In this document: positions 10,206 through 37,647 of the stretch, one piece after another
Numbering within the stretch: position 1 is the first letter of the stretch
How the letters are laid out: each line of letters starts with the position of its first letter
Virus record (IMG/VR): IMGVR_UViG_3300036792_000384
Location: 1 to 41,917 of that record
Source: a virus
Direction: 5' to 3' (one strand)
Length of the DNA: 41,917 bases
Notes under the pieces: generated by a model
What the model was told of the DNA's origin: nothing
What the model saw: only the letters and a program-made list of their open reading frames with translations
Databases searched by the model: none
Translations under genes and position numbers: made by a program

Positions 10206-10666
10206 CGCGCGGTGACCAGCGCAAACAGCTGTGCGGGTGACGTGCGCCACGGCTTCGGGCCGGGGTAAAACCCGAGGTCCTGCAGGACGCGCAGGCACGC
10301 CTCCGAGCAGAACTTATCGTCGTCGTCGTGGAGGCCCCACGGTGTCGCGAAGCCGATGATTCCCGCCCAGTCGTAGCTCTGCCCGAGAAACGTGCTCGCG
10401 GCCGCTTTCGCGGGCGCCGCGTCGACGCCAGGCAGCTCAACCACGCGCCAGCAGGGATCCGTCAGATCGATGCGCGTAAAACGCACGCCCTGTTTGGGGA
10501 CCGAGGAAAAGCAGAGCGCGCTTTTGGGCGAGGCCTCGTAGTCGAAGGCCATCTCCACGTGCACGAAATCGCTGCCGCAACGCAGCCGAATCGCGAGGTC
10601 AAAAAGGCGGCCGTTCGCGGAAGGGTTCTTGTCCTTCGAGCCGTCATGGAAGGCGAGCGCAACCAT
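10202..10666 (-). CDS. Putative permuted NlpC/P60-like (YiiX-type) cysteine hydrolase
   Basis: The ATG overlaps the lysozyme stop (TGATG), giving 154 residues. A conserved His lies early (DFVHVEMAFDY, H36) and the likely catalytic Cys late (DDKFCSEACLRVL, C120, after SYDWAGIIGFA). This His-before-Cys order is that of circularly permuted NlpC/P60 proteins (YiiX/YebB/LRAT-like). Such enzymes cleave peptidoglycan peptides or acyl groups. Coupling to a lysozyme suggests a second cell-wall hydrolase in the lysis cassette. It has no signal peptide, so it would need a holin. A role on the virion is an alternative. Confidence 0.65.
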   Translation of the reverse strand: MVALAFHDGSKDKNPSANGRLFDLAIRLRCGSDFVHVEMAFDYEASPKSALCFSSVPKQGVRFTRIDLTDPCWRVVELPGVDAAPAKAAASTFLGQSYDWAGIIGFATPWGLHDDDDKFCSEACLRVLQDLGFYPGPKPWRTSPAQLFALVTAR

Positions 10667-11100
10667 CAGGCCGCCTCCAGGAAAAGGGCGATTTCGGCTT
10701 CGCGCCGGCGGGCGAGCCCGTCGGAGTGCTTGCCCGAGACCACCTCCCAGTCGCGGAAGTGACTGGCGGCGAGCTGGTAGCAGCCCGCGTTCAGAAGCTT
10801 GAGGACCGTCGAGGTTGCGAGTCTTCCCCGCCCCTCGTTGTAGGCGAAGCTGACGAGCGCGTCCCACTGGCCCTGCGTGAGCGGAACGCGGACCAGCTGC
10901 CGTACAGCCGCCTCCGCTTCGCCCACATCGGCGCACAGGTCGGCCTCGGCTTTCTCCTTCGTTTCGAAGGTGCCGAAGCGGACCTCGGGTCCGGTGTGTC
11001 CGTACCCAATCGTCCAGACGCCGTTGCCGTCCTGGTAGGCGCGCAGGCGCAACGCCTCGAAGGCCTCGATCAGTGCGAGGCCTTTTGCTGACGTTTTCAC
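10666..11100 (-). CDS. T4-type lysozyme endolysin (GH24)
   Basis: A 144-residue glycoside hydrolase family 24 endolysin that cleaves the MurNAc-GlcNAc bond. The catalytic triad is visible: E15 in FEALR, D24 in AYQDGNG, T30 in VWTIGYGHT. Further family motifs are LTQGQWDALVSFAYNEG and SDGLARRREAE. Length is normal for the family. There is no N-terminal signal-anchor segment, so export probably depends on a holin (candidates: 11106-11456 or 12669-13031). The downstream hydrolase gene overlaps its stop. Confidence 0.93.
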   Translation of the reverse strand: MKTSAKGLALIEAFEALRLRAYQDGNGVWTIGYGHTGPEVRFGTFETKEKAEADLCADVGEAEAAVRQLVRVPLTQGQWDALVSFAYNEGRGRLATSTVLKLLNAGCYQLAASHFRDWEVVSGKHSDGLARRREAEIALFLEAA

Positions 11101-11105
11101 GGGCT

Positions 11106-11456
11106 CTACGCCGCCGCCGGGATCTGCGCGGGCTGTGCGGGCTGCGCCGGCTGTGCGGGCGCTGGTTTCGCCTTGTGCGAGAACGCGCCGAGGGCGTTGG
11201 CGATTGTGACGGTGAGGTTAACCAGCATGGCGATGCCGGCGACGTTGGGGTTGGGGGAACTGGCGAGGGCGCCGCTGGCGGCCGCGATAACGGCCTCGGC
11301 TTTCTGCAGCCCGGTAGAGCCGGTGCCGAGGGCCTCGGCGGCCTGCACGCCGGAGATGACGGCGGGGGCGTACTGGATGGTCTGCGCGTCGATGGCGGCG
11401 ATCGCTGGAATGATCGAAGGCGCAGCCGCGGGCGCCGAAACGGGAGTCGTACTCAT
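11106..11456 (-). CDS. Putative holin-like or lysis-associated protein (116 aa)
   Basis: A 116-residue, alanine-rich protein encoded five bases upstream of the lysozyme. It has moderately hydrophobic segments (PSIIPAIAAIDAQTIQYAPA and VAGIAMLVNLTVTIANALGA) and a low-complexity tail with three PAQ repeats. I recall similar short proteins (xNPNVxxIAxLVNLxVTIxNAxG) next to lysozymes in many phages, never characterised. A holin function fits the position, but the hydrophobicity is not strong. It faces the regulator gene at 11565 across a 108-base gap. Confidence 0.5.
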   Translation of the reverse strand: MSTTPVSAPAAAPSIIPAIAAIDAQTIQYAPAVISGVQAAEALGTGSTGLQKAEAVIAAASGALASSPNPNVAGIAMLVNLTVTIANALGAFSHKAKPAPAQPAQPAQPAQIPAAA

Positions 11457-11503
11457 ACCGCTTGGTCGGCGACCCGGCGCGGGGCTTGAAGACAGGTTAT
11501 TTA

Positions 11504-11548
11504 GACACAGTCGCCAAAGTGTCGCGACTGTCGGGATTGGCTATCCTG
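11504..11548. promoter_or_regulatory. Dyad and promoter candidate before the response regulator
   Basis: In the divergent gap 11457-11564, ACAGTCGC (11507-11514) and GCGACTGT (11524-11531) are perfect inverted copies with a 9-base spacer. The overlapping GACA (11504) to TGTC (11520) spacing is 12 bases. TGTCGC (11520-11525) is followed 16 bases later by TATCCT (11542-11547), which could be a -10 element. A GGAGG site precedes the ATG at 11565. Confidence 0.6.
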
Positions 11549-11564
11549 AGAACCGGAGGATGGT

Positions 11565-12242
11565 ATGAACCCGCACACTTCACCACTGAGTCTTGTAATC
11601 GCAGACGACCACGCGCTGCTGCGATTTTGCGCACGTTCGGTCGCGGAGGAAGACGACCTGTGCATCGTAATCGGAGAGGCATCGAACGGCGAGGAGGCCG
11701 TCGAGATCGGCACCCGGCTTGCCCCGCGCGTCGTTCTGATGGACATGTCAATGCCCGGCAGGGTGACCGGAACAGAGGCCGCCGCAGCGCTGGCGGCCCT
11801 GCCAGGCGTCGCTGTGGTCGCGCTCACGATGCACAATGATCCGCGCTCGATCGCCGCCATGCTCGAGGCCGGCGTCCGGAGCTTCGTGCCGAAGAGCGAG
11901 CCGCCCGAGGAGCTGCGCCGCGCGATCGCCGCCGCGGCAGCCGGGCGGACCTACTTTCCGCCGTCGATCGCGGAAACCGTGGCGCACCAGCTGCTGCACC
12001 CGCGCAACTTCGGAGGCCTCGACTTTGCGCCGCGCGAGCTGGACGTTCTTCGCCTCACAGCGGCGGGCAAGAGCGTGAAGGAGACCGCCACGCGCATGGG
12101 AATCGAGGAGACAACCGTGCGCGGGTATCGGAAGACGCTGGGGCGGAAGATCGGCGCGACGGGCGCGGTCGCGCTCAGCAACTTCTACGCGGGGGCTTCC
12201 CTGCCCTCTCAGTTAGCCGTGGGCCGCCAGGCGCGAATATAG
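11565..12242 (+). CDS. NarL/FixJ-family response regulator (LuxR-type HTH)
   Basis: A complete 225-residue two-component response regulator. The receiver domain has the acidic pair DDH (D14, D15), the phospho-acceptor D60 in VLMDMSMPG, T88 in ALTMHND and K110 in FVPKSEP. The output domain (about 148-205) is a LuxR helix-turn-helix: FAPRELDVLRLTAAGKSVKE, MGIEETTVRGYRKTLGRKIG. All key residues are intact, so it should be phosphorylated by a host histidine kinase, since none is encoded here. It has its own promoter-like region, points against the lysis and tail genes around it, and its 3' end overlaps the end of 12209-12613 by 34 bases. That marks it as an inserted moron. A likely role is coupling phage or host transcription to a host signal. 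Confidence 0.93.
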   Translation: MNPHTSPLSLVIADDHALLRFCARSVAEEDDLCIVIGEASNGEEAVEIGTRLAPRVVLMDMSMPGRVTGTEAAAALAALPGVAVVALTMHNDPRSIAAMLEAGVRSFVPKSEPPEELRRAIAAAAAGRTYFPPSIAETVAHQLLHPRNFGGLDFAPRELDVLRLTAAGKSVKETATRMGIEETTVRGYRKTLGRKIGATGAVALSNFYAGASLPSQLAVGRQARI

Positions 12243-12613
12243 CGCCAGTTCTGGCCCGCCACGATTCCCGTTACGACGGCGCTCGCCGCTGCCGGCCCGA
12301 CCAGAAACAGCTCTCCGTTGCTCCCCGGCTTCGACCGGTGAATCAGCCAGTGCGTGACGATCGGGGCCGCGCAAATCGCGCCCTTCACCGAGAAAAACAG
12401 CCCGCGGTTCAGGTGGCCGTTCGAGACGTAAAATTTTGTCTTTTCGACGGTGCCGGGAATGTTGTCGATGCCGTAAACCGTGGTGCCCGCGTCGAGGCCC
12501 TGCGCGATGCAATTGGCGGCCTCAGCGCCTCTGAGAAACCAGTGGGGAAGGTCAGCTGCGGGCGCGAGTGCCGGCAGTATAAAAAGCGCCGCGAGGGCGA
12601 GAATTCGCTTCAT
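12209..12613 (-). CDS. Secreted or membrane-anchored hypothetical protein (134 aa)
   Basis: An N-terminal signal peptide is clear (MKRILALAALFILPALAPAA, cleavage near residue 20). The mature part has a hydrophobic segment (LVGPAAASAVVTGIVAGQNW) and two cysteines. It lies among lysis genes, so it may act in the periplasm or inner membrane at lysis. I know similar uncharacterised proteins with a WLIHR motif followed by a hydrophobic helix but no function for them. The ribosome-binding site is weak and lies in the palindrome-rich spacer upstream. Confidence 0.65.
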   Translation of the reverse strand: MKRILALAALFILPALAPAADLPHWFLRGAEAANCIAQGLDAGTTVYGIDNIPGTVEKTKFYVSNGHLNRGLFFSVKGAICAAPIVTHWLIHRSKPGSNGELFLVGPAAASAVVTGIVAGQNWRYIRAWRPTAN

Positions 12614-12675
12614 GCCCTGAGGTCGGCTGAGAATGTAGCTGGCTATATAGCTATATAGCTGGCTATATTCAGGGC
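12614..12675. promoter_or_regulatory. AT-rich nested palindromes between lysis genes
   Basis: GCCCTGA (12614-12620) and TCAGGGC (12669-12675) are inverted copies enclosing AGCTATATAGCT (12649-12660) and GCTATATAGC (12642-12651), both perfect palindromes, plus two copies of TAGCTGGCTATAT. The low GC content stands out sharply. It may be a promoter, an operator array, or a cruciform/terminator between two minus-strand genes. Confidence 0.55.
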
Positions 12676-13031
12676 TTGCGGTACTTGTCGCCGCGCGAGC
12701 CCATCACCTGAAGGATCATTTCGCGCAAAAGGCGGAGATCCTCCTTGGTGGCCATCTGCTCGATCATGGCGTCGGTGTGGGCCTTGTCGCGGAGGTAATC
12801 GTTCTTATCGACCGCGTTGTCGAGATGCCGCGTGAGCGTGGTTTGCGTGGCCTGCTGGGCCGCCTGCAGCTGCGCGACCGACTGCGTCAGGCTGCGCTCG
12901 TTGCCGTAGAGGCTGACGGTGGCAATGATGCCCGTAGTTATGAGCGTGGCGACCATGCCGAGCAGGCACGTCGCCAGAGGGCCTGCAATGTGGATACCGG
13001 GAACTGCTGGGGGCTGCTGAAGACGAGCCAT
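12669..13031 (-). CDS. Membrane-anchored coiled-coil protein, possible holin or spanin-like (120 aa)
   Basis: One strong transmembrane helix near residues 17-42 (GPLATCLLGMVATLITTGII) follows a short N-terminus. The rest is a coiled coil (SLTQSVAQLQAAQQATQTTL) and a charged helix (MATKEDLRLLREMILQVMGS). This N-in/C-out layout matches inner-membrane spanin subunits or phage hemolysin-like (XhlA-type) proteins. GGGAG lies before the ATG. Its position between the tail fibre and lysis genes supports a lysis role; the subtype is undecided. Confidence 0.6.
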   Translation of the reverse strand: MARLQQPPAVPGIHIAGPLATCLLGMVATLITTGIIATVSLYGNERSLTQSVAQLQAAQQATQTTLTRHLDNAVDKNDYLRDKAHTDAMIEQMATKEDLRLLREMILQVMGSRGDKYRKP

Positions 13032-13085
13032 AGATTTTCTCCCTTGTATTTCCCCCTCGCCTGAGAGGTCGCCGTTCGGGCGGAA

Positions 13086-14921
13086 CTACCCCAGGCTGAA
13101 TTCGTTCCAGAACATCCCCGAGAAGCCGGTGCTGCCGTCGCCGTACACCGTGTAGTAATCGCCCGGCAGGGCAAGAAGCATGCAGGTCGTCCAGCCGATC
13201 GACGACTGTGAGTAGCCCGTGTGGCCCTGAAACGGGGCAATTCCGGTGGCGTCTGCGAGCGCGGTCACCGTGCCGGTGGCGGCGCGGAAATTGGCGGCCA
13301 CGGCAAAAATCGCCTTGGTTGATGTGCCCGGATTCTGGTAGCAGCGAACCAGTCCGTTGGTGACGTAGCCCGCGCGCGAGGGGGTGGATTGCACGGCCGG
13401 CACATTGATCTGGTACTCGACCCACGAGGAGAGCGTGCCGGTTGAAACCACCTTGTAGTACGAGCCGTTCGGAACCGGAATAATGACCGTGTTCGGCCCC
13501 GTTCCGCCGTTGATATTCTGCATCTGCCAGACAACCGTGGAGGGTGTCGTGGTGGTGTCGCAGTAGCCGTTTAAATTGCCGCTCGTGCCCGTCATCTGCG
13601 CCACGACGAAAATCGTGTTGCCGGTGGTGTTCTGGTACACCGTCGAAAGCGCGCGCGTCGACCCGGCAAGGTTTGAGGAGGGGGTCAGCGTGAGATTCAT
13701 TTGAACCTCGACGCATGTGGACACATTGACGCCGCTCGTGCCGTTGACCTTGTAGTAATAATTGACCGGCACGAAGAAAAATACGCTGACGGCCCATTGG
13801 CCGCTCCCCGCATACCAGTGCTGCGCGACGGCGGTTGTCGGGGTGGTGCTCGAATCACACCACGCGGTCAGCGTCTGCGCAGTCGAGTTGGTCATGTTGC
13901 ACTCGACGAAGACCATCAGCGGCTTGCCCGTCGTGTTCTGGTAAACGGTGCCGGCGACGCGCGAGGGCGTTGTGCGGGTGAAGTAGGAGGATCCGCCGCT
14001 CGAGCTGCCGCCTGTGCTCGCGATCGTCACGCCGCCCACGCCGTCATCTGTGAGCGTGACGTTCGATCCCGCTTTTAAATTCAGGATCGATTGCGAGCCG
14101 TTCGCAACGCTGTTGGTCTTAAGCGTGATCCCGCTGCCTGTGCTTGTGATGGTTATGCCGCCGAGGCCGTCATCGGCAAGCGTGATCCCGGTACCGGCCT
14201 TCAAATTCAGAATGCTCTGCGAGCCGTTCGCGGTGCCGTTCGTCTTGAGCGCCAGCGCGGTCGCGGTGTTCGTGATCGTCACGCCTCCGGCGCCGTCGTC
14301 GACAACGGAAATTCCGGTCCCGGCTTTCAGGTTGAGCAGCGTCTGGCTGCCGTTGGTGGTGCCGTTCGTTTTGAGCGTGAGCGCGGACGCGCCTGTAATG
14401 GTGATGCCACCGAGGCCGTCATCGGCGAGCGTAATATTCGATCCCGCTTTTAAATTCAGGACCGCCTGGCTGCCGTTGGCAGTCCCGTTCGTTTCGAGCG
14501 CCACTCCGGAGGCCGCGGCGATCGTGACTCCGCCGAGGCCATCGTCCGCAAGCGTGACATTCGAGCCCGCCTTGAGGTTCAAAATCGACTGGCTGCCGTT
14601 CGCGGTGCCATTGGTCTTCAGCGTGACTCCACCCGTGGCGGTGATGGTGATGCCGCCGAGGCCGTCGTCGCTGACGGTGATATTGGTGCCGTTCTTGAGA
14701 TTCAGGATCGTCTGGCTGCCGTTCGCGGTGCCGTTCGTCTTCAGCGCGATATTGGTTACCGCGGCGCCGCCGTCGATGATGCTGCCGTCCGAGGCATACA
14801 CCGCCGCGTGGCCCACCGTGGTCGAGCCGCCGCCGAACATCTGAACGACGTTGTTGTCGCCCTGGCGGAGCGCTCCCTGAATCAGCTCGGGGCTGAGGTT
14901 CCCTCTTACTCGTTTGGCCAT
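13086..14921 (-). CDS. Repeat-rich tail fibre / receptor-binding protein (611 aa)
   Basis: Residues 1-58 form a short N-terminal attachment segment (AKRVRGNLSPELIQGALRQG). Residues 59-305 are six tandem repeats of 41-42 residues with the core LKTNGTANGSQ-ILNLKAG and DDGLGGITIT, a pattern of trimeric beta-helical shafts. Residues 310-611 contain three diverged repeats of about 90 residues (VYQNTTGxxxxVFV ... YYKVxxTG), likely the C-terminal receptor-binding tip. The gene follows the tail hub and a second tail protein on the same strand. Change in repeat number or tip would alter host range. The stop at 13086 is followed by the lysis genes. Confidence 0.85.
   Translation of the reverse strand: MAKRVRGNLSPELIQGALRQGDNNVVQMFGGGSTTVGHAAVYASDGSIIDGGAAVTNIALKTNGTANGSQTILNLKNGTNITVSDDGLGGITITATGGVTLKTNGTANGSQSILNLKAGSNVTLADDGLGGVTIAAASGVALETNGTANGSQAVLNLKAGSNITLADDGLGGITITGASALTLKTNGTTNGSQTLLNLKAGTGISVVDDGAGGVTITNTATALALKTNGTANGSQSILNLKAGTGITLADDGLGGITITSTGSGITLKTNSVANGSQSILNLKAGSNVTLTDDGVGGVTIASTGGSSSGGSSYFTRTTPSRVAGTVYQNTTGKPLMVFVECNMTNSTAQTLTAWCDSSTTPTTAVAQHWYAGSGQWAVSVFFFVPVNYYYKVNGTSGVNVSTCVEVQMNLTLTPSSNLAGSTRALSTVYQNTTGNTIFVVAQMTGTSGNLNGYCDTTTTPSTVVWQMQNINGGTGPNTVIIPVPNGSYYKVVSTGTLSSWVEYQINVPAVQSTPSRAGYVTNGLVRCYQNPGTSTKAIFAVAANFRAATGTVTALADATGIAPFQGHTGYSQSSIGWTTCMLLALPGDYYTVYGDGSTGFSGMFWNEFSLG
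14007..14747 (-). repeat. Six tandem ~123-126 bp coding repeats of the fibre shaft
   Basis: Each unit encodes about 41 residues (LKTNGTxNGSQxxLNLK then AGxxxxxxDDGxGGxTI). Copies differ at the third codon position and at a few residues, so they are old duplications maintained by selection rather than recent slippage. They are the shaft of the tail fibre. Confidence 0.85.
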
Positions 14922-15688: not shown

Positions 15689-18600
15689 CTAATCCGCGAT
15701 CACCAGCAGCGGCGCGTTCGTGCCGGTTTCGTTATCGAGATCCGCGCTCAGGAGCGAGCCTCCCGGAAGCGCGAAGAGCGCCGCGCCCGGGATGACGTTC
15801 GATTTCGAGCCTCCCGGAGGCACTCTCATCTGCACCCAGTCGCCGCCGTTGCGGGTCAGGGTGATCCTGATATCGCCCGAGCCCGAGGGCAGCGAGGGAC
15901 CCGGGTAAGCGCCGGCAGCCGATAGCGTCGTCTCGGTCATGGTGTCGGTGTAATCGGCTGTTCCCGCGCTCAGGCTGGTAATGAGCCTCCACACCGCGTT
16001 CGCGACCGGATGGCCGTCCGCGCAGGCGTATATCTCGAGCCCGGTTACCCGAGGGTCGGCGGAGGTGGGCAGCGCCTGCAGGAGCGCGCCGGCGTAAGGG
16101 CCGCTGGGCCCGGTCGAGCCGGTCCACTGCGAAAGGTCCGTCCGGAAGGGCGTCCCCGAGATCGTGCCCGTGAATGCAAAGGCATAGCGGCGGCCCATCG
16201 TCACGCCGAGCGGAGGCGCGAGCAGCACCGTGCTGAAGTTCAGTACCCCGACGCTGGTCCCGTCGTACGGGTTGGTGCTGTGGTTGATCACCGTCATCGA
16301 GCCGCCCTTGCCCGATGAATCCGTGATGCTGATGACCGCGCCCGAGGCCGAGAAGCTGTAGAACTGGCCGATCGTATCGGCTGCCCACCAGGCCGCCATT
16401 GATGAGGCGATCTGCGCCAGCGTGCTCGAGCTGGTGATCAGGTTGGTGTCACAGCGCCATGTGGACTGGTAGCCGCCGATGCGAAGCGCGACCTGCTCCC
16501 ATCCGGAGGCCGCGTGGGTAATAGTGATCGAGCCCGCGCTCGCCGGGCCCGTCAGGACCGGGTCGGCTGAAGGCTGCGGCGCCGCGACCGGTCCGCTGTA
16601 GTCGCCCGTGGTGGTGTCGACGACGGGCTGGGTCTGCGCCCAGCCGGCCTCGAAACTCTGCGGCGCGGCCGAGGCGGACTGGTTCCAGGCGGCGAGAAAT
16701 TCGCCCGCCGGCATGGCGGACATTGGGTAGCTGTACCGCGAGCCGCCGAGCGATCGCATCGCGAAGGGCCATACATCCGAGGCTGTCGACGTCATCAGGG
16801 TTTCGCTCGCCGGCAGGAGCGTGACGACGGAGCTGGTGAGCCCGCGCGAATTGACGAGGGTCGCCTGGATGGCGGCCACGCCGGCGAAGGGCAGCGGTAC
16901 CTGGTAGCCGAAGGTCGCGTTGGCGTTCGAGGCGAAGAACCGCGGCGGGAAATTGATTGTGCGCTGGTCGCACACTATCCGCCGCATGACCGGACAGACG
17001 AGAAAAGGCCCGCCCGCCGCTGGGGTAGTCAGGGGCAGGGTGGTACGCAGCAGGCCCGTGGCGGGGTTATATTCCGCGACAACGCCCTCTTCTCCCGCGC
17101 CCGTAGCGCCGCTCACGAACCCGCCGCCGGGATAGATCGCGAGGCCCGAAGGAACGGTGAACTCGGCCTTCCAGTCGGCGCTGACGGCGATGAAGTTGTT
17201 AGCGATGCGCGGGTGCGCCGCGGCGGTGGTGCCGCACTGCCCGCGCACGACCGTCACAGTCCCGTGGAACTCGTCGACGACGGTGACCGCGGTTACCAGC
17301 ATGATCTCCGCGTCCATCTGGATCCACTCGTTTACGACCGGGTGCGTGCCATAGGTGCCGTAATCGATCGAGGTCACTACCGCGTCCGCCACGCCGTCCG
17401 GAGAGAACATCTCCGTCTGCGTTTCCTCGGGGCAGTAGTAGATATCGGCGCTCGCCGCGACGACCGCCGAAGCGTAATCAACGCACGTGAAATTCTCGAG
17501 CCAGAAAGTACCGTCCTGATCGCTGCGCGCGCTCAGGCCCCAGTCCGCCGGCGGATTCGAAGCTGCCGTCAGGGCGGGCGTGACGGGAACGTCAGCGGGC
17601 TTCGGCCCAACGGTGACGTCGTACGTATCCCAGTTCGTCGTTTTGCCGGTGATGGTGATCGAGAAGTCTTTGTTGAGCTTCCAGCTGGTGACGCGGAATT
17701 CGATGTATGTGGGCGTGGCCGCGGTGGCACCCGTGACCGTCGTGTGCTGCGCGGGATAGTCCGGGCAGTCATCGACCGTCAGCGAGCAGACCATTCCGGG
17801 TCGCACGTTGAGCGCGAGCGCGGTGGTCTTGAAGCTCACCTGCCGCGCGGCCGCAAACTGCGCGGTGTCGATTCCGCCGATCTCCTCGCACAGGCGAACG
17901 CTGGCCAGCCGCCCCGCCTGGTCCTTCGTGGTGACGCCGGCGAGATTCAGCTCGCCGCGAACATACTCAGGGCGGCCGCTCGCGCCGGCGGAAATGATGG
18001 CGTGGTCTTCGTTGTAAATCGAAACGGAGTTGCCCGCGTACCCGAACTCCTCGTCCGCGAAGTAAATCGTGAGGTGGTTGAAGGTGGAAGAGATCGGGTC
18101 GAACTGGACGCTCTGAAAAACAACGTTGCCGTCCTCGAAGGCCTCGACGGCGGAGCTGTTGATTCGCAGATCGATGACGAGCTTGCCGAAGCTGAACGAA
18201 AATACGCCGAGGCAGTTGTTCAGGATTTCCTGCAGCCACTGGCGCAGGGCCTTGGCCTCCTGGAGAACGCCCGTGAATTTGAACTGCGGCGCCGTGCCGG
18301 TCCCGATGATTTTCGAGACGGTGGTATCGCACAGCGTGGCCGCTGCCATCGCCGCGGCGACGTCGAAGTAGCCCTCCTGCACGGCCTTGGGGGCGAAGTA
18401 GATTCCCCTGCCCTTCAGATACGCGTTGACCGCGATCCAAACGGGGTTGTCGCAGTGCGTGATCTGCACGCGGTTGGTAGCTCCGCCGCCGGCGTCCTGC
18501 CAGCTCCAGCACGGCAGCCCGTAGCGCACGGGTACCTGCATGGAGTGCGATTCGACGGTCGATGGCTGCACGCCGGGCGTGTCGCTGCGCCGGATTTCAC

Positions 18601-20383
18601 AGAACGCGGTGCCGCCAGCCTTGCCGGTGCCGAAGCTCTGCGGACCCGAGCCGCCCTGCGAGAGGCTGAACTGGTCGCTGCCGCCGTCCGGATCGTTGTT
18701 CTGCGCCGGGTCGTGCCCGTCGCCGCGGCGCAGGCCGTAAACCCCCCAGGGTGTCGACCCCGAGTAGCGGATGATGTTCGAGCTCTTGGGCCAGCCATGC
18801 GGCGTCTGATTGTCGAGGAAGTACTGGCAGCTGTCCTGGCTGACGGAGGGATAAGAGATGGGCCCCTCGCTGACGATGCCGAGCGCGACGTAGAAGTCGG
18901 ACTCTTCGCGGCCCTCGATAATTTTCGCGTTGACCGGAATCCCCTTGGTCGCGTCGAGCGGGTCGGAAGCGTTCACGACCCAGTCGATAAAAACCTCCGG
19001 TACCACCTGGTCGTAAACCGAGTCCGCAATTTGCGAGGTCGAGTTGATCCTGTCTCGGCCGAAGCCCGCGACGCCGGTGGAATTGTCGAGGATCTGGACG
19101 CTCTGCGGGTTTCCTACGATGCCGCCGAAGTAGGGCGCCATGCCGTGCGAAAGGCAGCCGTTCGCGGTGTCGAAGCCCTTGTCGCAGGAGGTGGGGTCTC
19201 CCCCGCTCCCGGCGCTCGCGTATGGGCAGCCCAGCTCCGCGCGGTTGAAAGCCTTGAGGCACGTGCGCGAGATCTTCCGGATCGGATACGGCAGGTTGAG
19301 CTCGTAGATCCCGTCCGCGCACTGAATGGGAAATTCCGGCCCCGGCTTGACGCTGTACTTGAGCACGTGGCCGCGCCACAGCTGGATCAGCGTCGAGGTG
19401 TTGACGTGGTAGAGCGAGAACTGAACGTCCGCCTTCTTGAGGTCGACGCCGTTGGCGATTTTCGAGATGACGCGGTCCGCGTTGCCGAGGACGAAGCTCG
19501 CCTGATCGGCGGCGCCGCCGATCGACTGCTGGATGCCGTCCCAGTCGAGCAGCCGGGGCTGGTAGGTGACGCCGCCCACGGTGCACAGGCGATCCGAAAT
19601 CGTGATAGCCGGGTACTGCGGAATGATGGGCAGGTTGGCGATCGAGACCGCCGAGACTGTGCTGGTGAGCGGCAGGGTCACTGCCCCGCCCGAGGGCGCG
19701 GCGTCTGCCGACGTCGTGTAGACGACATCATTGAGACTGAATTGCGACCCCGCCGGAATTGTCGCGGTGCCCACGCCCGCGATGGTCACGCTGCTGTCTC
19801 CGATCGCCGCGGCCACGCTGAGGTACGGCGTGCGCGTCCCCCATATGGAGGTTTGCCAGGCGACCGGCTGGATGGTGAGCAGCGGGATTAAGGTTTGCAC
19901 CTGGTCGAGCAGTCCGGTGGCGAGGCCTCCGCTGATGGGCCCGCGCGTGACGGTGCTGGTGATCGAGTACGATGGGCCGCCGCCGGTGGGCACCTCGAGG
20001 AGCGTAATTCCGGTCGAGGTAATACCCGCCGCCACTGCCTCGAGCGAGAAGCTCTGGTCAGCAAATCGACACGTGACTGCTGTCGTCGTGCCGTCGTTAT
20101 TCGGGCGGTTGAACGTGAATTGCGAGAGCGCGCCCGCGCCGGCAGCCCACCAGTTCACAAGCGTCTGCCGCTCGGCCCTGCTCATCGCGGCTTTGCGGAA
20201 CACGTATTTCTTCGTGCCGTCGCCCTGGGTAAAGCGCTGCTCGATCTTCGCGTCGAGGGCGCCGAAGCGGTGCACGGTGACGTTCGGCTCGACGGTGAAC
20301 GAGTACTGGTAGTCGGGCTTCAGCGGGAACGCCGTCGCGTTCACTGAAGGGGCGGGAATCGTAATTGCGCCGAGCTTGCTCAT
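15689..20383 (-). CDS. Giant tail hub / tip protein, DUF2460-DUF2163-hub fusion (1564 aa)
   Basis: The largest gene here. Residues 1-135 resemble distal-tail proteins (PNVTVHRFGALDAKIEQRFT ... NWWAAGAGALSQFTFNRP). Residues about 200-430 match the DUF2163-type hub module (GVTYQPRLLDWDGIQQSIGG; LIQLWRGHVLKYSV; RTCLKAFNRAELGC), including its Cys-rich end. Residues about 690-1000 resemble the central tail-hub region (VIDLRINSSAVEAFEDGNVV). The rest is a chain of beta domains, ending in a carbohydrate-binding-like module (WWAADTIGQFYSFSASGAV). In gene transfer agents and many siphophages the first two modules are separate genes, so this looks like a fusion. No NlpC/P60 peptidase is encoded beside it. 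It caps the tail tube and anchors the fibres. Its ATG overlaps the previous gene. Confidence 0.8.
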   Translation of the reverse strand: MSKLGAITIPAPSVNATAFPLKPDYQYSFTVEPNVTVHRFGALDAKIEQRFTQGDGTKKYVFRKAAMSRAERQTLVNWWAAGAGALSQFTFNRPNNDGTTTAVTCRFADQSFSLEAVAAGITSTGITLLEVPTGGGPSYSITSTVTRGPISGGLATGLLDQVQTLIPLLTIQPVAWQTSIWGTRTPYLSVAAAIGDSSVTIAGVGTATIPAGSQFSLNDVVYTTSADAAPSGGAVTLPLTSTVSAVSIANLPIIPQYPAITISDRLCTVGGVTYQPRLLDWDGIQQSIGGAADQASFVLGNADRVISKIANGVDLKKADVQFSLYHVNTSTLIQLWRGHVLKYSVKPGPEFPIQCADGIYELNLPYPIRKISRTCLKAFNRAELGCPYASAGSGGDPTSCDKGFDTANGCLSHGMAPYFGGIVGNPQSVQILDNSTGVAGFGRDRINSTSQIADSVYDQVVPEVFIDWVVNASDPLDATKGIPVNAKIIEGREESDFYVALGIVSEGPISYPSVSQDSCQYFLDNQTPHGWPKSSNIIRYSGSTPWGVYGLRRGDGHDPAQNNDPDGGSDQFSLSQGGSGPQSFGTGKAGGTAFCEIRRSDTPGVQPSTVESHSMQVPVRYGLPCWSWQDAGGGATNRVQITHCDNPVWIAVNAYLKGRGIYFAPKAVQEGYFDVAAAMAAATLCDTTVSKIIGTGTAPQFKFTGVLQEAKALRQWLQEILNNCLGVFSFSFGKLVIDLRINSSAVEAFEDGNVVFQSVQFDPISSTFNHLTIYFADEEFGYAGNSVSIYNEDHAIISAGASGRPEYVRGELNLAGVTTKDQAGRLASVRLCEEIGGIDTAQFAAARQVSFKTTALALNVRPGMVCSLTVDDCPDYPAQHTTVTGATAATPTYIEFRVTSWKLNKDFSITITGKTTNWDTYDVTVGPKPADVPVTPALTAASNPPADWGLSARSDQDGTFWLENFTCVDYASAVVAASADIYYCPEETQTEMFSPDGVADAVVTSIDYGTYGTHPVVNEWIQMDAEIMLVTAVTVVDEFHGTVTVVRGQCGTTAAAHPRIANNFIAVSADWKAEFTVPSGLAIYPGGGFVSGATGAGEEGVVAEYNPATGLLRTTLPLTTPAAGGPFLVCPVMRRIVCDQRTINFPPRFFASNANATFGYQVPLPFAGVAAIQATLVNSRGLTSSVVTLLPASETLMTSTASDVWPFAMRSLGGSRYSYPMSAMPAGEFLAAWNQSASAAPQSFEAGWAQTQPVVDTTTGDYSGPVAAPQPSADPVLTGPASAGSITITHAASGWEQVALRIGGYQSTWRCDTNLITSSSTLAQIASSMAAWWAADTIGQFYSFSASGAVISITDSSGKGGSMTVINHSTNPYDGTSVGVLNFSTVLLAPPLGVTMGRRYAFAFTGTISGTPFRTDLSQWTGSTGPSGPYAGALLQALPTSADPRVTGLEIYACADGHPVANAVWRLITSLSAGTADYTDTMTETTLSAAGAYPGPSLPSGSGDIRITLTRNGGDWVQMRVPPGGSKSNVIPGAALFALPGGSLLSADLDNETGTNAPLLVIAD

Positions 20384-21469: not shown

Positions 21470-24400
21470 TCACGAAAGCACCGTGGTCGGGCTCGTCATT
21501 GCCGCGTACTGTTCGAGGCGTCCGTAGCTGCCGCTCGAGGCGTCGAGCGTGGCATCGGCTACAGTGCGCGGGTTGCTCTGAATCGCGTCGACGGTCTGGC
21601 CCTTCAGGAATGCCGCGGAGCTGGCCCCGTCGAGGGCGAGTGAAATGGTGCTCGGGTTCTCCCCGTACTTGCCGTATGTCGGCGAATTGATCGTGCCGGC
21701 GAAATTGCTGAGCGAGGAAAGGGAAGACTGGAAGCCGAGCAGCGAGCCGTTGTGATACGTCCCCGCCTGAGTAAGCTGCCCGCCTGAGTAAGCGAAGTTG
21801 GCCGCCTGCGGTCCTACCAGCCCGAATTTCTGCCCCGTCGTTTCCGCGTACAGCCCAAGCATCTGAAGGACGCTCGGATCGTGGAGCGCGCGCGCGATCG
21901 AGCCGCCGTACTGCTGCTTCGCGATATTCGCGATCTGCGTCGCGGTGTCGGTGTTGATGTCGACGTGGTACTGCTCCTTGACGCGCTTCTTCACCTGCTC
22001 CGGCAGCGTCTGCCAGACGGTCATGCGCAGCGCGCCGAGCAGCGCACCCGCGCCCGCGCCGATCGCGGCGCCGATCGGGCCGCCGTATTTGAAGCCGACC
22101 AGCGCGCCGCCAGCGGTATCTTCGCCGAGTCCAACCGCGCCGCCGCGGTGCAGGCCGTCCATCAGGAGCGTGGAGCCGCCGAGCAGCGCCGCCTGGGAGT
22201 GACCGAGCTGCGAGAGGTTCGCGCCGAACGAAGCCGTGTTGCCGGGGTGAAAGGCGCCGTTGAGAAATGTCTGGTCGAATTTCCCGAGCGAGGCTTTGAA
22301 GCCGCCGCCTTTGCCGAACATCCCGAGCAGCCCGCCCAGCGGGCCGCCGCCCTGGCCACCGATACCCGGAATGCCGCGGGGCGCCGCCGCAGCAGCTTCA
22401 GGCGCGGCCGCCTCCGAACTGCTGGGGGCACCGTAGCTGCTCGAGGGCGAGGAATCGCCGCCGCCCCAGGAGCGCCAGTCATTCCAGCCGCCGCCGGTGG
22501 AGACACCGCCTCCGCCGCCTGTCGCGGAACTGTCGCTGCTGTCGCTATAGTCGCGGCTGCTTGGGACGAAGGGCGGGGTAGCGATCGAGGCGGCGCTGCC
22601 GCCGCTGCCGATCGAGATAACCGGCTGCTGGCTGCCGCCGAAGAGGGTCCCGAAAATTCCGCCGCGGCTGCCCCCGGGCTGCACCTGCACCGAACGTCCG
22701 GTAATGCTGCCGGTGATCGCTGCCGCGAGCTGCGAGGTCACGACGTCGCGGAAAGCGCCGAGCAGGGAATTGCGGATCGAATCCCCGAGGGCCTGCCACA
22801 CGCTCTTGCCCTTGCTGAGCGTGTCGTCGAAAAGCTGGTCGAGGTCTTTTTTGACGCCCTCGTAAATAGAGCGCTGCTGATCGACGATGATCGACGTGGT
22901 GGCGCGGCCGCTCTTGAGCTGGATCTCGGCGACGGCGTCGGCGGTCTGCTGCGCCTGCTGCGTGTCCTGATCCTTCTGCCGGGCGCGGAGTGCCGCCTCG
23001 CGGACGTCAGCGTCTGCGCGTGAGGCCTGCCCCTTCTGTACCTGATCCTCGATGGCTTCGATTTCGTGCTTGTACTCGGCGTCCCGGATGGTCTTCGACG
23101 CCTCCGCCGCGCGCTGCAGGTAATCAACTTCGATCGCGAGCTTCTGCTGCTCGACCGCGATTTTCTGCTGGACGGTCTGCGCCTTTACCTCTTCCAGCTG
23201 GCCCAGCTGCTTGTCGCGCGAGGCGCGCAGCTGCTCGGCCTGAAATTCGCTCACCTGCTGCGCGGTCTGAAACTGGTAGTCCTTTGTCTGGTCCTGGAAC
23301 TGGCGGTCTGTGGCGGCGCGCTGCGCGGCGAGCTGGTCGCCGGCGGATTTCTTGGCCGCGGCGGTCTGCTGATCGAGATTCCGGTCCTTCTCGTCATAAC
23401 TGGCATTGATGGCCTGCGCCTGCTGGCGGAATTCCTCAAGCTGGCGCGCCCGCTCCTTCGGATCTGAGGAGAGGCCGTTAGGGCCGACCTTACGCGCGGC
23501 TTCGGTCAGAAGCTGGGTGCGGCTGATATCGTTCTTTTCCTTTTCGAGCGCCGTCTCCTTGTCGAGGGTGTCCCTGTAGATTTTGAGTTTCTGGTCTTCG
23601 AGGTCGCGGACGTTTTCGAGGCCAAGCGCCTCGCGCAATTTCAGCGAATCGTTTTCCGCCTGCTCGGCGCGCTTCAGCCCGTTGACGCGCAGCGTGAGCG
23701 ATTCCTCGTTTGCCTTCACCTCGAGCGCGAGTGTCTGCTCGTGCTCTTTGCGCTGCTCGGTCTGAATTTCCGCCGCCAGCTGCCGCCGGTACTCGGCTTC
23801 CGCCTGCTTATTTGTTACCCGGGAGACGTTGCCGCGGGAGTTGATATGGGTTTCCGAGTTCTGGATTTCCCGCGCGTTCTGCAGCTCCAGCGCGCGGATC
23901 CCGGTAGCGTCCCGCCCCTCGGCCTCATCCGCCGCGTTACGGGCCGTCCTGAGGGCAGCGGCGGCCTCTTTGGGGGCCGCTATAGCCTGCTCCGCGCTGG
24001 CGATCTGATCCTTGAGCCGTTCCACCGCCTGGTTGGCCGCCCTCACAGCGGACGCGGGCGCGGTGGCGTCGCCGATCTTCAGCTTCGCGGTGTCCTCGGC
24101 AACCTGTAAATCCTTCTTCAGCCGATCAAGCCGGAGCTGCGGGAGCTGGTCTTCGAGCGCGGCGTTGCGGTCGGCGGTGATGGTGCCGAAGCCGTTGGCC
24201 CCCAGCCGCCCAGCCTCCTGGTGCAGCCGGTCCTGCAGGCTGTTGCCGACGATGTCGGTGGGCGCGCTGGGACGCCCGAGCAGGCCGCCTGTCGCGCCGC
24301 TCAGAACTGCCTGGAGGATGTTCCCGCTCTGGCCGCCCGTGTGGGCATCGAGCATGTTCTTCAGCCAGAGGGGGCCGCTCACCACGAGGTCGAGCGCCCA

Positions 24401-25678
24401 TACGGCCTTTTCCTTCAGCTTGCTGGTGAGCCGTTCAAATTCGTTTTCGAGGTCGAGGACCTTCTTGCGGTACGCATCGATCGCCTGCAGCTCCTCACCC
24501 GACAGGATGCGGGCGTGCTCCTTCGCGCGCTGGCTGAGCTTGTCGTAACTGTCGATAAGCGGCAGGAACTCTTTCGCGCCGCGGCCGAAGATCTCCTGCG
24601 CGAGTGTGGCGCGCTGGTAATAATCCGGGATTTTCTGGAGAGCGCGGAACGCCTGGTCGACGGCAGCGCCGGCGTCAACCGCGCCGTCCGCCGTGTGGGT
24701 AATCTGAACGCCGAGCACTGACAGGGCTGCGCTCGCTTTGGCGCTTTCGCCGTTGCCCTCCGCCATCGATTCGTTCAGCTGCTTTACCGCCATGCCGAGC
24801 ACGTTGGCGTTGACGCCGGCGTACTCCGCGGCCTTGCCGAATAACTGGGTCTGCTCTGTTGTGAGCCCGGTGCGCGCGGAAAGCTGCTCTATCTGAAGCG
24901 CCTCCTGCGCGAAGCCGTCAGCCTCACTCTTGAGGAATTTGAACGCGGCCCCCAGCGCGAGGACTCCGCCGACTGCCGCGACGCCGAGGCCTCCGAGTTT
25001 GAGGACAGACTGTTCCGCGAGGTCACCGACGGTCTGAAGCGGATTCTGAATGAACTGCTTGATTTTCGACGCCAGCTCCTGGTTGCCGGCCTTGTCCCGC
25101 ATCTGGTCGAAGTGACCGTTGATTTTCTTCTGCAGGTCCTCGGTGAGGCCGAGGTCGGCGAGCGCCTTTTTGCGCTGCGCCTCGATGCGCTGCAGCCCGG
25201 ACATTTCTTTCGCCTGGCTGCCGGCGATGAGGGAATCGACTTTGCGCCGCGCCTGCTCCTCGGCCTGCAGCTGGGCCTGCCGGTATTGTTCGGCGAGTTT
25301 GTCGGCGTCCGGACGTTTCGGGCCGTCGCCTGAGTGCTTATTCTGCTGCTGCTCGCGCGCGTACTGCGCGGCCGAGGTCCGGAGCCTGTCGATCTGGTCT
25401 GCGCCGCGCTGGGCCTCCTGCGCAATTTGATTGAGGCCGCCGGCGGATACGCGCGCCGCGGTGGCAGCGCCCACGAGGTCCTCGCCGAGGGCAGCGACTA
25501 CCTTCTGCGATCGCAGCGCTGCTTCGGAGATTTTGTCGAGGCCGGCCTGTGTCTGATCCCCGGCCGCTTTCGCCGTGGCTCCGATTTTGCCGAGTTCCTG
25601 ATTCGTCCGCTTTGCGCTCGCCTCCGCTTTTGAGGAGTCGAACTCCGCGACGATTCGCATTTTGCCGTTGTCTGCCAT
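21470..25678 (-). CDS. Tape measure protein (1402 aa)
   Basis: Very long, helix-rich protein starting MADNGKMRIVAEFDSSKAEA, with extended coiled coils through the middle (for example AEQYRQAQLQAEEQARRK, KAQTVQQKIAVEQQKLAIEV). A hydrophobic stretch near residues 225-250 (LGGLGVAAVGGVLALGAAFK) and the glycine/alanine-rich C-terminal part (YGGPIGAAIGAGAGALLGAL) are typical of tape measures that cross the host membrane. It sets tail length; at about 1.5 angstrom per residue of helix, a tail near 200 nm would follow. Its gene follows the frameshifted tail chaperones directly, as in other siphophages. The start has GGGCGGGTAACC in front. Confidence 0.93.
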   Translation of the reverse strand: MADNGKMRIVAEFDSSKAEASAKRTNQELGKIGATAKAAGDQTQAGLDKISEAALRSQKVVAALGEDLVGAATAARVSAGGLNQIAQEAQRGADQIDRLRTSAAQYAREQQQNKHSGDGPKRPDADKLAEQYRQAQLQAEEQARRKVDSLIAGSQAKEMSGLQRIEAQRKKALADLGLTEDLQKKINGHFDQMRDKAGNQELASKIKQFIQNPLQTVGDLAEQSVLKLGGLGVAAVGGVLALGAAFKFLKSEADGFAQEALQIEQLSARTGLTTEQTQLFGKAAEYAGVNANVLGMAVKQLNESMAEGNGESAKASAALSVLGVQITHTADGAVDAGAAVDQAFRALQKIPDYYQRATLAQEIFGRGAKEFLPLIDSYDKLSQRAKEHARILSGEELQAIDAYRKKVLDLENEFERLTSKLKEKAVWALDLVVSGPLWLKNMLDAHTGGQSGNILQAVLSGATGGLLGRPSAPTDIVGNSLQDRLHQEAGRLGANGFGTITADRNAALEDQLPQLRLDRLKKDLQVAEDTAKLKIGDATAPASAVRAANQAVERLKDQIASAEQAIAAPKEAAAALRTARNAADEAEGRDATGIRALELQNAREIQNSETHINSRGNVSRVTNKQAEAEYRRQLAAEIQTEQRKEHEQTLALEVKANEESLTLRVNGLKRAEQAENDSLKLREALGLENVRDLEDQKLKIYRDTLDKETALEKEKNDISRTQLLTEAARKVGPNGLSSDPKERARQLEEFRQQAQAINASYDEKDRNLDQQTAAAKKSAGDQLAAQRAATDRQFQDQTKDYQFQTAQQVSEFQAEQLRASRDKQLGQLEEVKAQTVQQKIAVEQQKLAIEVDYLQRAAEASKTIRDAEYKHEIEAIEDQVQKGQASRADADVREAALRARQKDQDTQQAQQTADAVAEIQLKSGRATTSIIVDQQRSIYEGVKKDLDQLFDDTLSKGKSVWQALGDSIRNSLLGAFRDVVTSQLAAAITGSITGRSVQVQPGGSRGGIFGTLFGGSQQPVISIGSGGSAASIATPPFVPSSRDYSDSSDSSATGGGGGVSTGGGWNDWRSWGGGDSSPSSSYGAPSSSEAAAPEAAAAAPRGIPGIGGQGGGPLGGLLGMFGKGGGFKASLGKFDQTFLNGAFHPGNTASFGANLSQLGHSQAALLGGSTLLMDGLHRGGAVGLGEDTAGGALVGFKYGGPIGAAIGAGAGALLGALRMTVWQTLPEQVKKRVKEQYHVDINTDTATQIANIAKQQYGGSIARALHDPSVLQMLGLYAETTGQKFGLVGPQAANFAYSGGQLTQAGTYHNGSLLGFQSSLSSLSNFAGTINSPTYGKYGENPSTISLALDGASSAAFLKGQTVDAIQSNPRTVADATLDASSGSYGRLEQYAAMTSPTTVLS

Positions 25679-29701: not shown

Positions 29702-30868
29702 TTACCCCAGGACGCGTATCGCCTTGCGGGCGTCGAGCGTCTTCACGCCGAACAGAAGGTCGAGGCGGACATACGTCCGGACGTCCTTCGGCGCGTACCA
29801 CACGGTGGAGCGAAGGCCGATGCCGTTGAAATTCACGACAGCGACGTTTGCTCCCGGCGCGTTCGGCACGGCGAGCGGGCGGGTGGCCAGCGCGAAAGCC
29901 TGCTGCGCGAAGGCCAGGTTGACGGCGTGGTTGGCGGTGACCGTCACGGCATCTCCGTCCGACACGTTCGCCTGGAGAACCGGGCTGATCGCGACGGTGG
30001 CCGTGGTGCCGGTGATCGTCTGGGCGGTCGTGACGGTGTAATTCTGGCCGCCGACGGCGAACACGTCACCCTGGTTGATGGTCCCGCCCGAGGTCAGAGC
30101 CTTCAGGTTGATGGTGCCGGAACCGGGCAGCTGGCCGAGGCGCTGCGTGGGCGCTGCCTGCGAGCCATTCACGAGGACGGAGCCGTTCCAGGCCGTGCCG
30201 TTCGTGTGGTTGGGCAGCTTGTTGCTGTCGGTGTACAGCATCCCGAATTTCGGGCGCAGCATGCCGGTGGTCTGCTGCTCGGGGCTACCGGAAACGTAGT
30301 CCTGATAGAAGACCTGGTTGAACTTGTTCACCGCGGCCGGTCCGAGCAGAACGCTCCGGCCGACTTCGGGAATCAAAGCCTGATCCATTGCCTGCTTGAT
30401 GTCGGTGCCGAGGGCAGCGACAGTGGCGGGTGTGGTGCCGGCGACGCCCGTGGTCTGGTACACGTCGGTGTACAGATTGATGCAGGCGTCTTCGATCGCG
30501 GAGCCGAGAGCCTGAGCGGCCGGATACGCGAACTCTTCCTGCAGGCCCTTGAGCGAGAGCGACTGCTCACGATCGCCGATTTCGAACACGACCTGCTTCC
30601 AGTTCGTGAGCTGAATCGCGACGTTGTCGGCGTTCGGCTTCACGCTGGAGAAGCTGTCGGGGTTCACGTCGGTCGCCGTGAAGCGGCCCGGCATGCGGGT
30701 GTTGACCGTATCGCCCTGCTGCGAGATCTGAGCCTCGAAGTCGCGATACATCATGCCCGTCATCTTGAGCATCGGGAACAGCTGCGCGAGCGATTCCTGA
30801 GCCCAGAATGTCGGGTCGTATACGTTAATTAAGTCGTAAGACTGTGTGCCTGCGTATGATCCAGCCAC
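29702..30868 (-). CDS. Major capsid protein, P22-like coat
   Basis: A 388-residue major capsid protein. The N-terminus (AGSYAGTQSYDLINVYDPTF and MYRDFEAQISQQGDTVNTRM) matches P22-type coat proteins, including the RDF motif and the KGDTV-x-xR pattern. Residues 255-310 (SGGTINQGDVFAVGGQNYTV; ATVAISPVLQANVSDGDAV) form the extra beta I-domain of this family. A scaffold gene lies immediately upstream and there is no protease fused. The start is GTG at 30868 with AAGGA, which lies within the 3' arm of a hairpin (30872-30903). High expression is implied by the terminator that follows. Confidence 0.85.
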   Translation of the reverse strand: MAGSYAGTQSYDLINVYDPTFWAQESLAQLFPMLKMTGMMYRDFEAQISQQGDTVNTRMPGRFTATDVNPDSFSSVKPNADNVAIQLTNWKQVVFEIGDREQSLSLKGLQEEFAYPAAQALGSAIEDACINLYTDVYQTTGVAGTTPATVAALGTDIKQAMDQALIPEVGRSVLLGPAAVNKFNQVFYQDYVSGSPEQQTTGMLRPKFGMLYTDSNKLPNHTNGTAWNGSVLVNGSQAAPTQRLGQLPGSGTINLKALTSGGTINQGDVFAVGGQNYTVTTAQTITGTTATVAISPVLQANVSDGDAVTVTANHAVNLAFAQQAFALATRPLAVPNAPGANVAVVNFNGIGLRSTVWYAPKDVRTYVRLDLLFGVKTLDARKAIRVLG

Positions 30869-34690: not shown

Positions 34691-35869
34691 ATGAAGTTCA
34701 CCTGCGCCACGTGCACCTCCGCTCGCGAAATGAAAACCGATCGCGCGCCGGCGGGCTGGAAGCGGCTCGGCGAGAAAACGTACTGCAGCGACTGCTGGAG
34801 GCAGATGTTCGTGCTGCGCGCCGTCACAATTCCGGTGGCGTCGCCGCTCGACCTGTCGTGGGATGAATTTGGCAAAGCCCTGCGCGCGCAGTGGGCGCTT
34901 GTCACCGAGGCCTGTAACTGGATGGTGACGGAGCTGTTCGTGCGCGACGATAAATCGCGCGACTCCGGCAAGCTGAAACCGATGCCGCGCGTATATCTGT
35001 ATCCCGAGACGCGGCGCATGTTTCCCCTGCTACCCTCGACTTCGTGCGCCGGCCTCGAGCAGGCGGTGCAGAAAAAGTACCGCGCGCGGCGCTACGAGGT
35101 CGTGTGGACGCACAAGGCCAGCCTGCCGACGTATCGGTACCCGACGCCCTTTCCGGTTCCAAACCAGGCGTGGAGCGTCGAGCTCGAGGACAAGGCCGCG
35201 ATTGTGAGCGCGCGCATTGGTGAGGAGCGGATCCGCTTTCGCCTGCGCGGTGGCCACCAGTTCCGCCGGCAGATGGCTGCCGTCCACCAGATCGTTTCGG
35301 GCGAAGCCCAGCAGGGGCAGCTGGATATTTACCGGCAGGGCACAAGCGTGATGTGCAAGATGGTTGCGTGGCTGCCACGCGGGGCAGGGAAGGCCGCTGA
35401 CGCCGAGGGAACGCTATTCGTGCGCACCGACGCCGACGCCCTTATCGTGGCGCTCAACGCGAAGGATGACCGCCTGTGGGTGTACCACGGCGATCAGGTA
35501 AAACGCTGGAGCGCCGAGCACAGAAAAATGCTGGACCGGCTCTCGGATGATTCGAAGGCCGAGCACCGCCCGGTACCGCCGTTCTCGAAACGCCGGCAGG
35601 CCGCGGCCACGAAATATTCGGACCGCATGAAGTCCGCCACGCACCAGATCTCGGCGATGATAGCGGGCTACGCGCGCCGGAGAAAATTCGCGCGGGTCCA
35701 GTACGACGACTCGCTGCAGAGCTTCTGTCCGGGTTTTCCGTGGTTTTCGCTGCGGGAGAAAATCGCGACGAAGTGCGACGAGGCGGGCATCGAGTTTCAC
35801 CACGTTGCAGCTGCGAGCGGTGAGGTGAAAGAAAATTCCAACGCGCCGCTCGGGAGCGAGGTAAATTAG
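34691..35869 (+). CDS. TnpB/Cas12-superfamily protein with degenerate RuvC motif (392 aa)
   Basis: Residues 1-40 carry a zinc ribbon (CATC at 5-8, CSDC at 32-35). Residues 45-110 hold the helix AQWALVTEACNWMVTELFV, like the W-x-N helices of TnpB/Cas12. Residues 145-235 are beta-rich (LPTYRYPTPFPVPNQAWSVE), as in the wedge domain. The RuvC-like part follows: FVRTDADALIVALNAKDDRL (RuvC-I-like, D247 or D249), bridge helix region, KFARVQYDDSLQSF (RuvC-II-like, D339/D340 where Glu is usual), and FPWFSLREKIATKCDEAGIE, the segment after RuvC-II in TnpB. The zinc finger normally next is missing. The C-terminus ENSNAPLGSEVN resembles the RuvC-III D-x-N-A-A motif with Asp replaced by Asn. A nuclease-impaired RNA-guided DNA binder is the likely function. 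A repeat array follows 113 bases downstream. Ribosome-binding site GGTGGG. Confidence 0.75.
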   Translation: MKFTCATCTSAREMKTDRAPAGWKRLGEKTYCSDCWRQMFVLRAVTIPVASPLDLSWDEFGKALRAQWALVTEACNWMVTELFVRDDKSRDSGKLKPMPRVYLYPETRRMFPLLPSTSCAGLEQAVQKKYRARRYEVVWTHKASLPTYRYPTPFPVPNQAWSVELEDKAAIVSARIGEERIRFRLRGGHQFRRQMAAVHQIVSGEAQQGQLDIYRQGTSVMCKMVAWLPRGAGKAADAEGTLFVRTDADALIVALNAKDDRLWVYHGDQVKRWSAEHRKMLDRLSDDSKAEHRPVPPFSKRRQAAATKYSDRMKSATHQISAMIAGYARRRKFARVQYDDSLQSFCPGFPWFSLREKIATKCDEAGIEFHHVAAASGEVKENSNAPLGSEVN

Positions 35870-36858: not shown

Positions 36859-37647
36859 CTAGATCGCCGGCGTCCACACGTGCCGGCAATTCCACCCGCC
36901 ACCGTAAATCAGACACGGCAACAGCGGAGTCTTCGAGTACTGCTCGAGCTCCTTATCGAGCCCGCTGATCTGGTCCAGTGTGTAAACCTTCCCGACATGG
37001 TGCTCGCAGAAGGGACGGTTTTTCAGGTCCTTTGGGCCGCGGTACAGATAATTCAGAACGCCGGCGCGAAGCCAGATCGTCGACGAGGTCCTGCGGTCGT
37101 AGCTCACGAGGCCTGTGTCTGCGTACGCGGCCGCCTGGTTGCGCAGCCTGGTATTGAGCGTGGCGCCGATCGCGTCGATGACCTTCGCCCGCGAGGTTCC
37201 CATCAGCGTGTTGCGCACGACGCCGGTGGCCACCGCCTGCACGGTGGTCGGTCCCATCCCGGTCAGGAATTTGTAATCGTGACGTTTCAGCGCCTCGAGA
37301 GCGTTGCTGTCGATGGGCGAAAGGGTGGACGGCTTGAGGCCCAGCGCCTCGAGCGTGCGGATGGCGAATATCTGGCTGTTGTCATATTTGCCAACAAAGC
37401 TCCGGACCTTCTCGGCGAAGCTGGAGCGGTTCAACTGCGCCTGCAACTCGCGCTGCAGGTCGACCAGCGTCTTTGCCTTCGCCGCGGTCTCGGTGGTCAC
37501 ATCGGAGAGCGCATCGATCGCGGCGCCGCGCAGTTCGTCGGCAACGGTGTTGAGCGCCACGATGAAGCGGTCGGACTCGCCGGCAACGAACGCGAGACGA
37601 TCATCTGAGATTTTGCGGAGCTGCAGCGGATCCGGTTTTGCGGCCAT
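36859..37647 (-). CDS. Head morphogenesis protein, MuF/SPP1 gp7 family
   Basis: 262 residues. The C-terminal domain has the family signature: RTSSTIWLRAGVLNYLYRGP, then NRPFCEHHVGKVYTLDQISG and YGGGWNCRHVWTPAI, with the C-x-x-H and CRH motif. The N-terminal part is helical. In SPP1 and Mu these proteins sit inside the capsid near the portal and may be ejected with DNA. It follows the portal genes as usual. Start ATG with AAGGAG somewhat far upstream. A fused toxin domain, sometimes seen on this family, is absent. Confidence 0.88.
   Translation of the reverse strand: MAAKPDPLQLRKISDDRLAFVAGESDRFIVALNTVADELRGAAIDALSDVTTETAAKAKTLVDLQRELQAQLNRSSFAEKVRSFVGKYDNSQIFAIRTLEALGLKPSTLSPIDSNALEALKRHDYKFLTGMGPTTVQAVATGVVRNTLMGTSRAKVIDAIGATLNTRLRNQAAAYADTGLVSYDRRTSSTIWLRAGVLNYLYRGPKDLKNRPFCEHHVGKVYTLDQISGLDKELEQYSKTPLLPCLIYGGGWNCRHVWTPAI

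Follow-up and report, generated by a model that had tools for sequence, protein, structure and literature searches.

A NarL/FixJ-type response regulator, probably functional, encoded back to back with an endolysin gene pair in a phage

We conclude that the orphan response regulator of this phage is genuine and probably functional, apparently acquired long ago and retained as an accessory gene in the lysis region, opposite the late operon. Judged from the sequence, we put this reading at a probability of about 70%. The window, meaning the whole stretch of DNA that was analysed, is an entire virus record of 41,917 bases, and the genome has 64% GC. The regulator gene and its domains are located as follows.

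11565..12242, + strand: NarL/FixJ-type response regulator, 225 aa (ORF, Pfam, model fold)
11595..11927, + strand: receiver domain, aa 11-121, with D14, D15, D60, T88 and K110 (PF00072, alignment)
12027..12176, + strand: GerE/LuxR helix-turn-helix, aa 155-204 (PF00196)

The reading frame runs from an ATG to a TAG, and no disruption of it was found. Both domains exceeded the curated Pfam cut-offs (receiver, E 3.3e-19, 69.5 bits vs 30.2; helix-turn-helix, E 4.4e-11, 42.7 bits vs 23.5) and Pfam matches were confined to receiver and helix-turn-helix families, with none to an autoinducer-binding domain. In a 15-row alignment with bacterial regulators, which are 31–35% identical to the phage protein, every row has the same residue at D14, D15, H16, D60, K110, R157, E158, T184, and V185; the segment between D60 and the conserved glycine (G69) is one residue longer in the phage protein than in the rest of the alignment. 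The AlphaFold model (pLDDT 81.9) comprises a receiver with five strands and, after it, the output-domain helices, with low confidence in the C-terminal 14 residues and an uncertain domain arrangement (pTM 0.63; whole-chain rmsd 7–17). Its top matches among solved structures were RcsB (E 3.2e-16), VraR (5.2e-15), and DesR (8.9e-15), and LiaR was also matched. These results bear out an earlier note on this DNA, which had described a complete NarL/FixJ regulator with D14/D15, D60, T88, K110, and the LuxR helix-turn-helix intact: each was found at its named position. The protein shares with RcsB, NarL, DesR, VraR, and UvrY/GacA the receiver plus GerE helix-turn-helix, the active-site residues, and the model fold. 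It differs from bacterial NarL/FixJ regulators in being about 40% identical to them at most, in being phage-borne, and in that no kinase gene was found adjacent to it. Its scores fell far short of each equivalog cut-off among the NCBIfam matches listed, the highest being that for MctR (106.1 of 300 bits), ahead of UvrY (98.4 of 280), NarL (89.2 of 250), and RcsB (77.4 of 235).

The setting of the gene is that of a phage, as the note had claimed. Matches to phage structural, packaging, and lysis proteins occur in the same record, and phage genes flank the regulator on both sides.

40586-41794, - strand: terminase (PHROG match)
38202-39902, - strand: portal (PHROG match)
29702-30868, - strand: major head protein (PHROG match)
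21470-25678, - strand: tail tape measure (PHROG match)
10666..11100, - strand: endolysin (phage lysozyme), the farther of two genes divergent from the regulator (PF00959, E 4.7e-40; phrog_7, E 2e-53)
11106..11456, - strand: weakly hydrophobic Ala-rich protein of 116 aa, from the nearer of these two divergent genes, without family match
12209..12613, - strand: 134-aa protein with a hydrophobic N-terminus, convergent with the regulator, without family match
12669..13031, - strand: 120-aa protein with a single hydrophobic stretch; phrog_2277 was matched weakly (E 1e-4)

The regulator lies on the plus strand, against a late operon on the minus strand, and its 3' end overlaps the convergent ORF at 12209-12613 by 34 nt. 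Its placement beside a lysozyme gene was confirmed by the PF00959 match. The description of its other neighbors as holin-like held in part: the small flanking proteins contain hydrophobic stretches (19-residue Kyte-Doolittle maxima of 1.73, 2.13, and 2.06), but none matched a holin family in Pfam, PHROG, or NCBIfam, so that the label is weak. The lysozyme is 54–56% identical to Pseudomonas phage endolysins and 62% identical to that of contig L095, far above the identities of the head, portal, and terminase proteins to deposited phages (22–36% among the matches listed); the lysis gene therefore seems to have been swapped into this phage. L095 itself was rejected as an example of the same arrangement, having a different gene order and no regulator. 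Elsewhere in the record, a 392-aa protein encoded inside the structural region (34691-35869, + strand) carries an N-terminal CxxC...CxxC stretch and had no PHROG or NCBIfam match, only a weak one to DUF3253; by eye, its C-terminal part may resemble TnpB/Cas12-like nucleases. A 262-aa protein (36859-37647) matches just the N-terminal part of a 1110-aa frame in a closest relative (L006, 312-3644).

We found no match to the histidine-kinase ATPase domain (HATPase_c, PF02518) in the record, whereas all 14 control genomes matched. The absence of a kinase asserted in the note thus holds for the record, which may be only a fragment of the virus. A complete two-component system, with the cognate kinase in the same genome, was not found in the record. 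The same kind of domain test detected no integrase in this possibly fragmentary record, and lysogeny is therefore not supported.

To describe the distribution of the gene, we defined related phages by using the tail protein of the window (15689-20383), aligned with its L175 relative, as a query, and kept the best 80 of 116 IMG/VR stretches. The regulator profile combined 50 bacterial regulators with the window protein, whose own score is thus not independent. No full regulator was obtained with this profile in the ORFs of the best 80 of 116 relatives or of L005 and L006. The window regulator lies 3.4–4.1 kb past the tail gene, and 36 of the 80 relatives extend at least 4.6 kb past theirs. These relatives are distant (best segments 40–49% identical), and their lysis genes differ from those of the window; the closest phages, L005 and L006 (65% identity in the head protein), end short of the regulator's place. 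A close relative carrying the regulator was not found. Since none of the 80 tail-protein relatives has a full regulator, the gene looks like a lineage-specific accessory (“moron”) gene, absent from relatives that are themselves distant. LuxR-type helix-turn-helix proteins lacking a receiver were observed among structural genes in L273 (3928-4398, with two such domains in tandem) and L006 (4744-5289).

The regulator has no near copy in the bacterial DNA searched. The closest full-length regulator in a scan of genome contigs, which was seeded by six short peptides and not exhaustive, is about 35% identical, and the closest on plasmids 39.9% identical (809 of 72,556 records matched at E<=1e-5). 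Across genome groups, the closest regulator was 40% identical in the phylum of the Acidobacteria record G001, the genome of L045 (51 of 247 genomes at E<=1e-25), and 37% identical in the class of G004 (L070, Novosphingobium; 1 of 240 at E<=1e-28), and no match was found in the phylum of G005 (L063, Tsukamurella; 0 of 198 at E<=1e-30), the three counts not being fairly comparable at such different cut-offs. In a tree of 38 rows, limited to aligned pieces of at least 170 residues and with rows more than 85% alike to a kept row dropped, the regulator's terminal branch measures 2.06 changes per column, compared with a median of 0.72, and it emerges from an open fork of 29 rows. Phylogeny, proposed earlier as the route to the cognate kinase, could not single one out from this fork. 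With no match above about 40% identity in the DNA searched and so long a branch, we conclude that the regulator is, by its divergence, old or fast-evolving, and probably not a fresh host copy. Phage profiles gave little on the host side. The head-protein profile matched 3 of 247 genomes in the phylum of G001 and the tail profile one of them (G210, also head-positive; C-terminal stretch only). G210 was rejected as host proof since, of the window proteins, only the head protein had a match in its DNA (L279-L281), at 28%. The tail profile matched 0 of 240 genomes in the class of G004, and the window tail protein 0 of 299 in the phylum of G007.

These data bear on the view that the gene has no function and is drifting, having been captured from a host by recombination. 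The single occurrence fits this view, as does the codon fit to late-gene usage, which at -1.041 is on the low side (-0.74 to -1.19 for ten late genes, the same ten that served as the reference; -0.88 to -1.01 for nine left-end genes; -1.138 for the regulator's own antisense). However, the frame and catalytic residues are intact on a long branch, and no near host copy exists among the genomes searched; we consider drift improbable. Retention of the active-site residues despite a branch of 2.06 argues for selection, and this combination appears to be the best evidence here for function. The more specific case of a pseudogenised recent host import, which the note had named as fatal to its proposal, was rejected as unlikely in view of the whole frame, the best identity of about 40% among the regulators found, and the branch length.

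Misassembly or mislabelling of bacterial DNA had to be weighed as well, because six of the seven other virus-labelled regulator hits that we inspected were bacterial DNA judging by their neighbors; the seventh, L282, is a phage. The records with bacterial regulator neighborhoods are L002, L003, L004, L283, L284, and L285. In the present record, the regulator shares its contig with lysozyme, tail, head, portal, and terminase genes and is closely flanked by phage genes, and its GC content (0.678) is near that of the other genes measured (0.62–0.67); an artefact is very improbable. In a phage collection, 28 of 50,697 records matched the regulator at E<=1e-5, and all three of those inspected had bacterial-looking neighbors: OmpA and cobalamin genes (CbiG) in H20, a CtpB-type protease and a Ppx/GppA gene in H1, and an adjoining histidine kinase and Na/H exchanger in H3. 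The three regulator loci found in IMG/VR all adjoin uvrC, presumably the bacterial uvrY-uvrC arrangement. Response regulators are therefore rare in phages, in agreement with the note, and most of the virus-labelled NarL-type regulators inspected belong to bacterial DNA that has been misfiled, a point of importance to anyone surveying auxiliary genes.

Phage-borne proteins of this kind are nonetheless already on record. PHROG 731 comprises phage-borne proteins with a receiver and a DNA-binding domain, and the window protein matches phrog_731 at E 1.4e-16. In a viral structure library, the model matched A0A8S5T1F5 and A0A6J5TBU0 (E 2.7e-9 and 2.5e-7; 13–16% identity), and several of the matched models carry the name response regulator. 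L282 (IMGVR_UViG_3300025504_000008), found by profile query, likewise has a receiver (75.8 bits) and a GerE domain (61.3 bits) in a phage contig, where the gene (15-737) lies upstream of the small terminase, large terminase, and portal genes. The L282 regulator is 37% identical to the window protein over residues 24-139, differs in genome position, and is truncated by the end of the contig. Among published phages, Alteromonas phage R8W carries a PhoB-like regulator (PMC8228385), phage V22 a CheY-like protein (PMC7289586), and soil phages phoB genes (PMC10987575); R8W and V22 are marine phages whose proteins are of the PhoB and CheY-like types as these papers name them, and the window protein differs in being NarL/FixJ. 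The point of interest here is the setting, antisense in a late operon and back to back with an endolysin pair. The literature searched yielded no study in which a NarL-type response regulator of a phage controls lysis.

The region shared by the regulator and the lysis genes spans 108 nt (11457-11564), between the regulator ATG and the divergent gene 11106-11456, which is followed by the lysozyme gene. It contains the first two of the elements below.

11507..11531, no strand assigned: perfect inverted repeat, 8-nt arms and 9-nt spacer, a candidate operator or leader hairpin
11555..11559, + strand: GGAGG ribosome-binding site, 5 nt before the regulator ATG (sequence read directly)
12631..12670, no strand assigned: AT-rich near-palindrome of 40 nt that contains two GCTATATAGC units and separates two late genes

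Arms of at least 8 nt arose in 6 of 500 mononucleotide shuffles of the intergenic region. The dyad pattern is present as a single copy in the window when up to three mismatches are allowed (chance mean 0.32), which speaks against a multi-site phage regulon acting through that operator. Control of a phage regulon through repeated dyads was rejected for want of a second copy. With its single copy, the dyad could still serve to control the divergent lysozyme pair and the regulator itself. As RNA, the leader of the regulator is predicted to form the dyad hairpin and a second hairpin over the ribosome site (z -2.09, equalled by 7 of 200 shuffles). The latter, which falls in the interval 11533-11567, could allow control of translation. 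A consensus scan revealed no sigma-70-type promoter or terminator in 10600-13100, although this consensus may not be that of the host. The RNA of the near-palindrome at 12631-12670 folds better than most shuffles (z -2.64).

We infer that the regulator is expressed, phosphorylated, and bound to DNA. It would be made from its own leader, with a good ribosome site, would receive phosphate at D60 from a host sensor kinase or from a small phosphodonor, as expected from its family, and in this form would dimerise and bind DNA through the GerE domain. It could also act unphosphorylated, so that the uptake of phosphate from a host kinase or small donors, which the note held to be obligatory, may not be needed. 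As targets, we rate host genes about as likely as the shared intergenic region, that is, as the regulator itself and the 11106-11456/lysozyme pair.

Action on the host is a plausible role, somewhat short of even odds: the regulator would use a host kinase and rewire host genes, or compete with a host regulator for phosphate or dimer partners, to the benefit of the infected or lysogenic cell. An orphan regulator with a full DNA-binding domain, no second dyad copy in the phage, and an accessory distribution speak for this role, but no integrase was found in the record to support the lysogenic part of it. Control of lysis, as raised in the note, is possible, and the dyad in the shared intergenic region is the one structural point in its favor. 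More tentatively, the regulator may bind the dyad at 11507-11531 and raise or lower expression of the 11106-11456/lysozyme pair and of itself, a host kinase signal then setting the timing of lysis. The regulator does stand back to back with the lysozyme pair over 108 nt, across a perfect dyad that is unique in the window. However, no promoter was found in 10600-13100, late transcription from upstream could reach the lysozyme gene without the regulator, and the dyad is also able to fold as an RNA hairpin. That a host two-component signal directly gates the divergent endolysin pair through the phage regulator and the dyad, so that lysis is timed by a host sensor kinase, seems to us distinctly unlikely.

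A functional parallel is with the LuxR-type quorum-sensing receptors described in phages (PMC6456758), likewise LuxR-type regulators by which a phage may read the state of its host. Those receptors bind autoinducers, according to that source, whereas the window protein has a phospho-receiver instead. If the regulator does read a host kinase, it would add to the quorum-sensing receptors a further means by which the programme of a phage could be tied to the physiology of the host.
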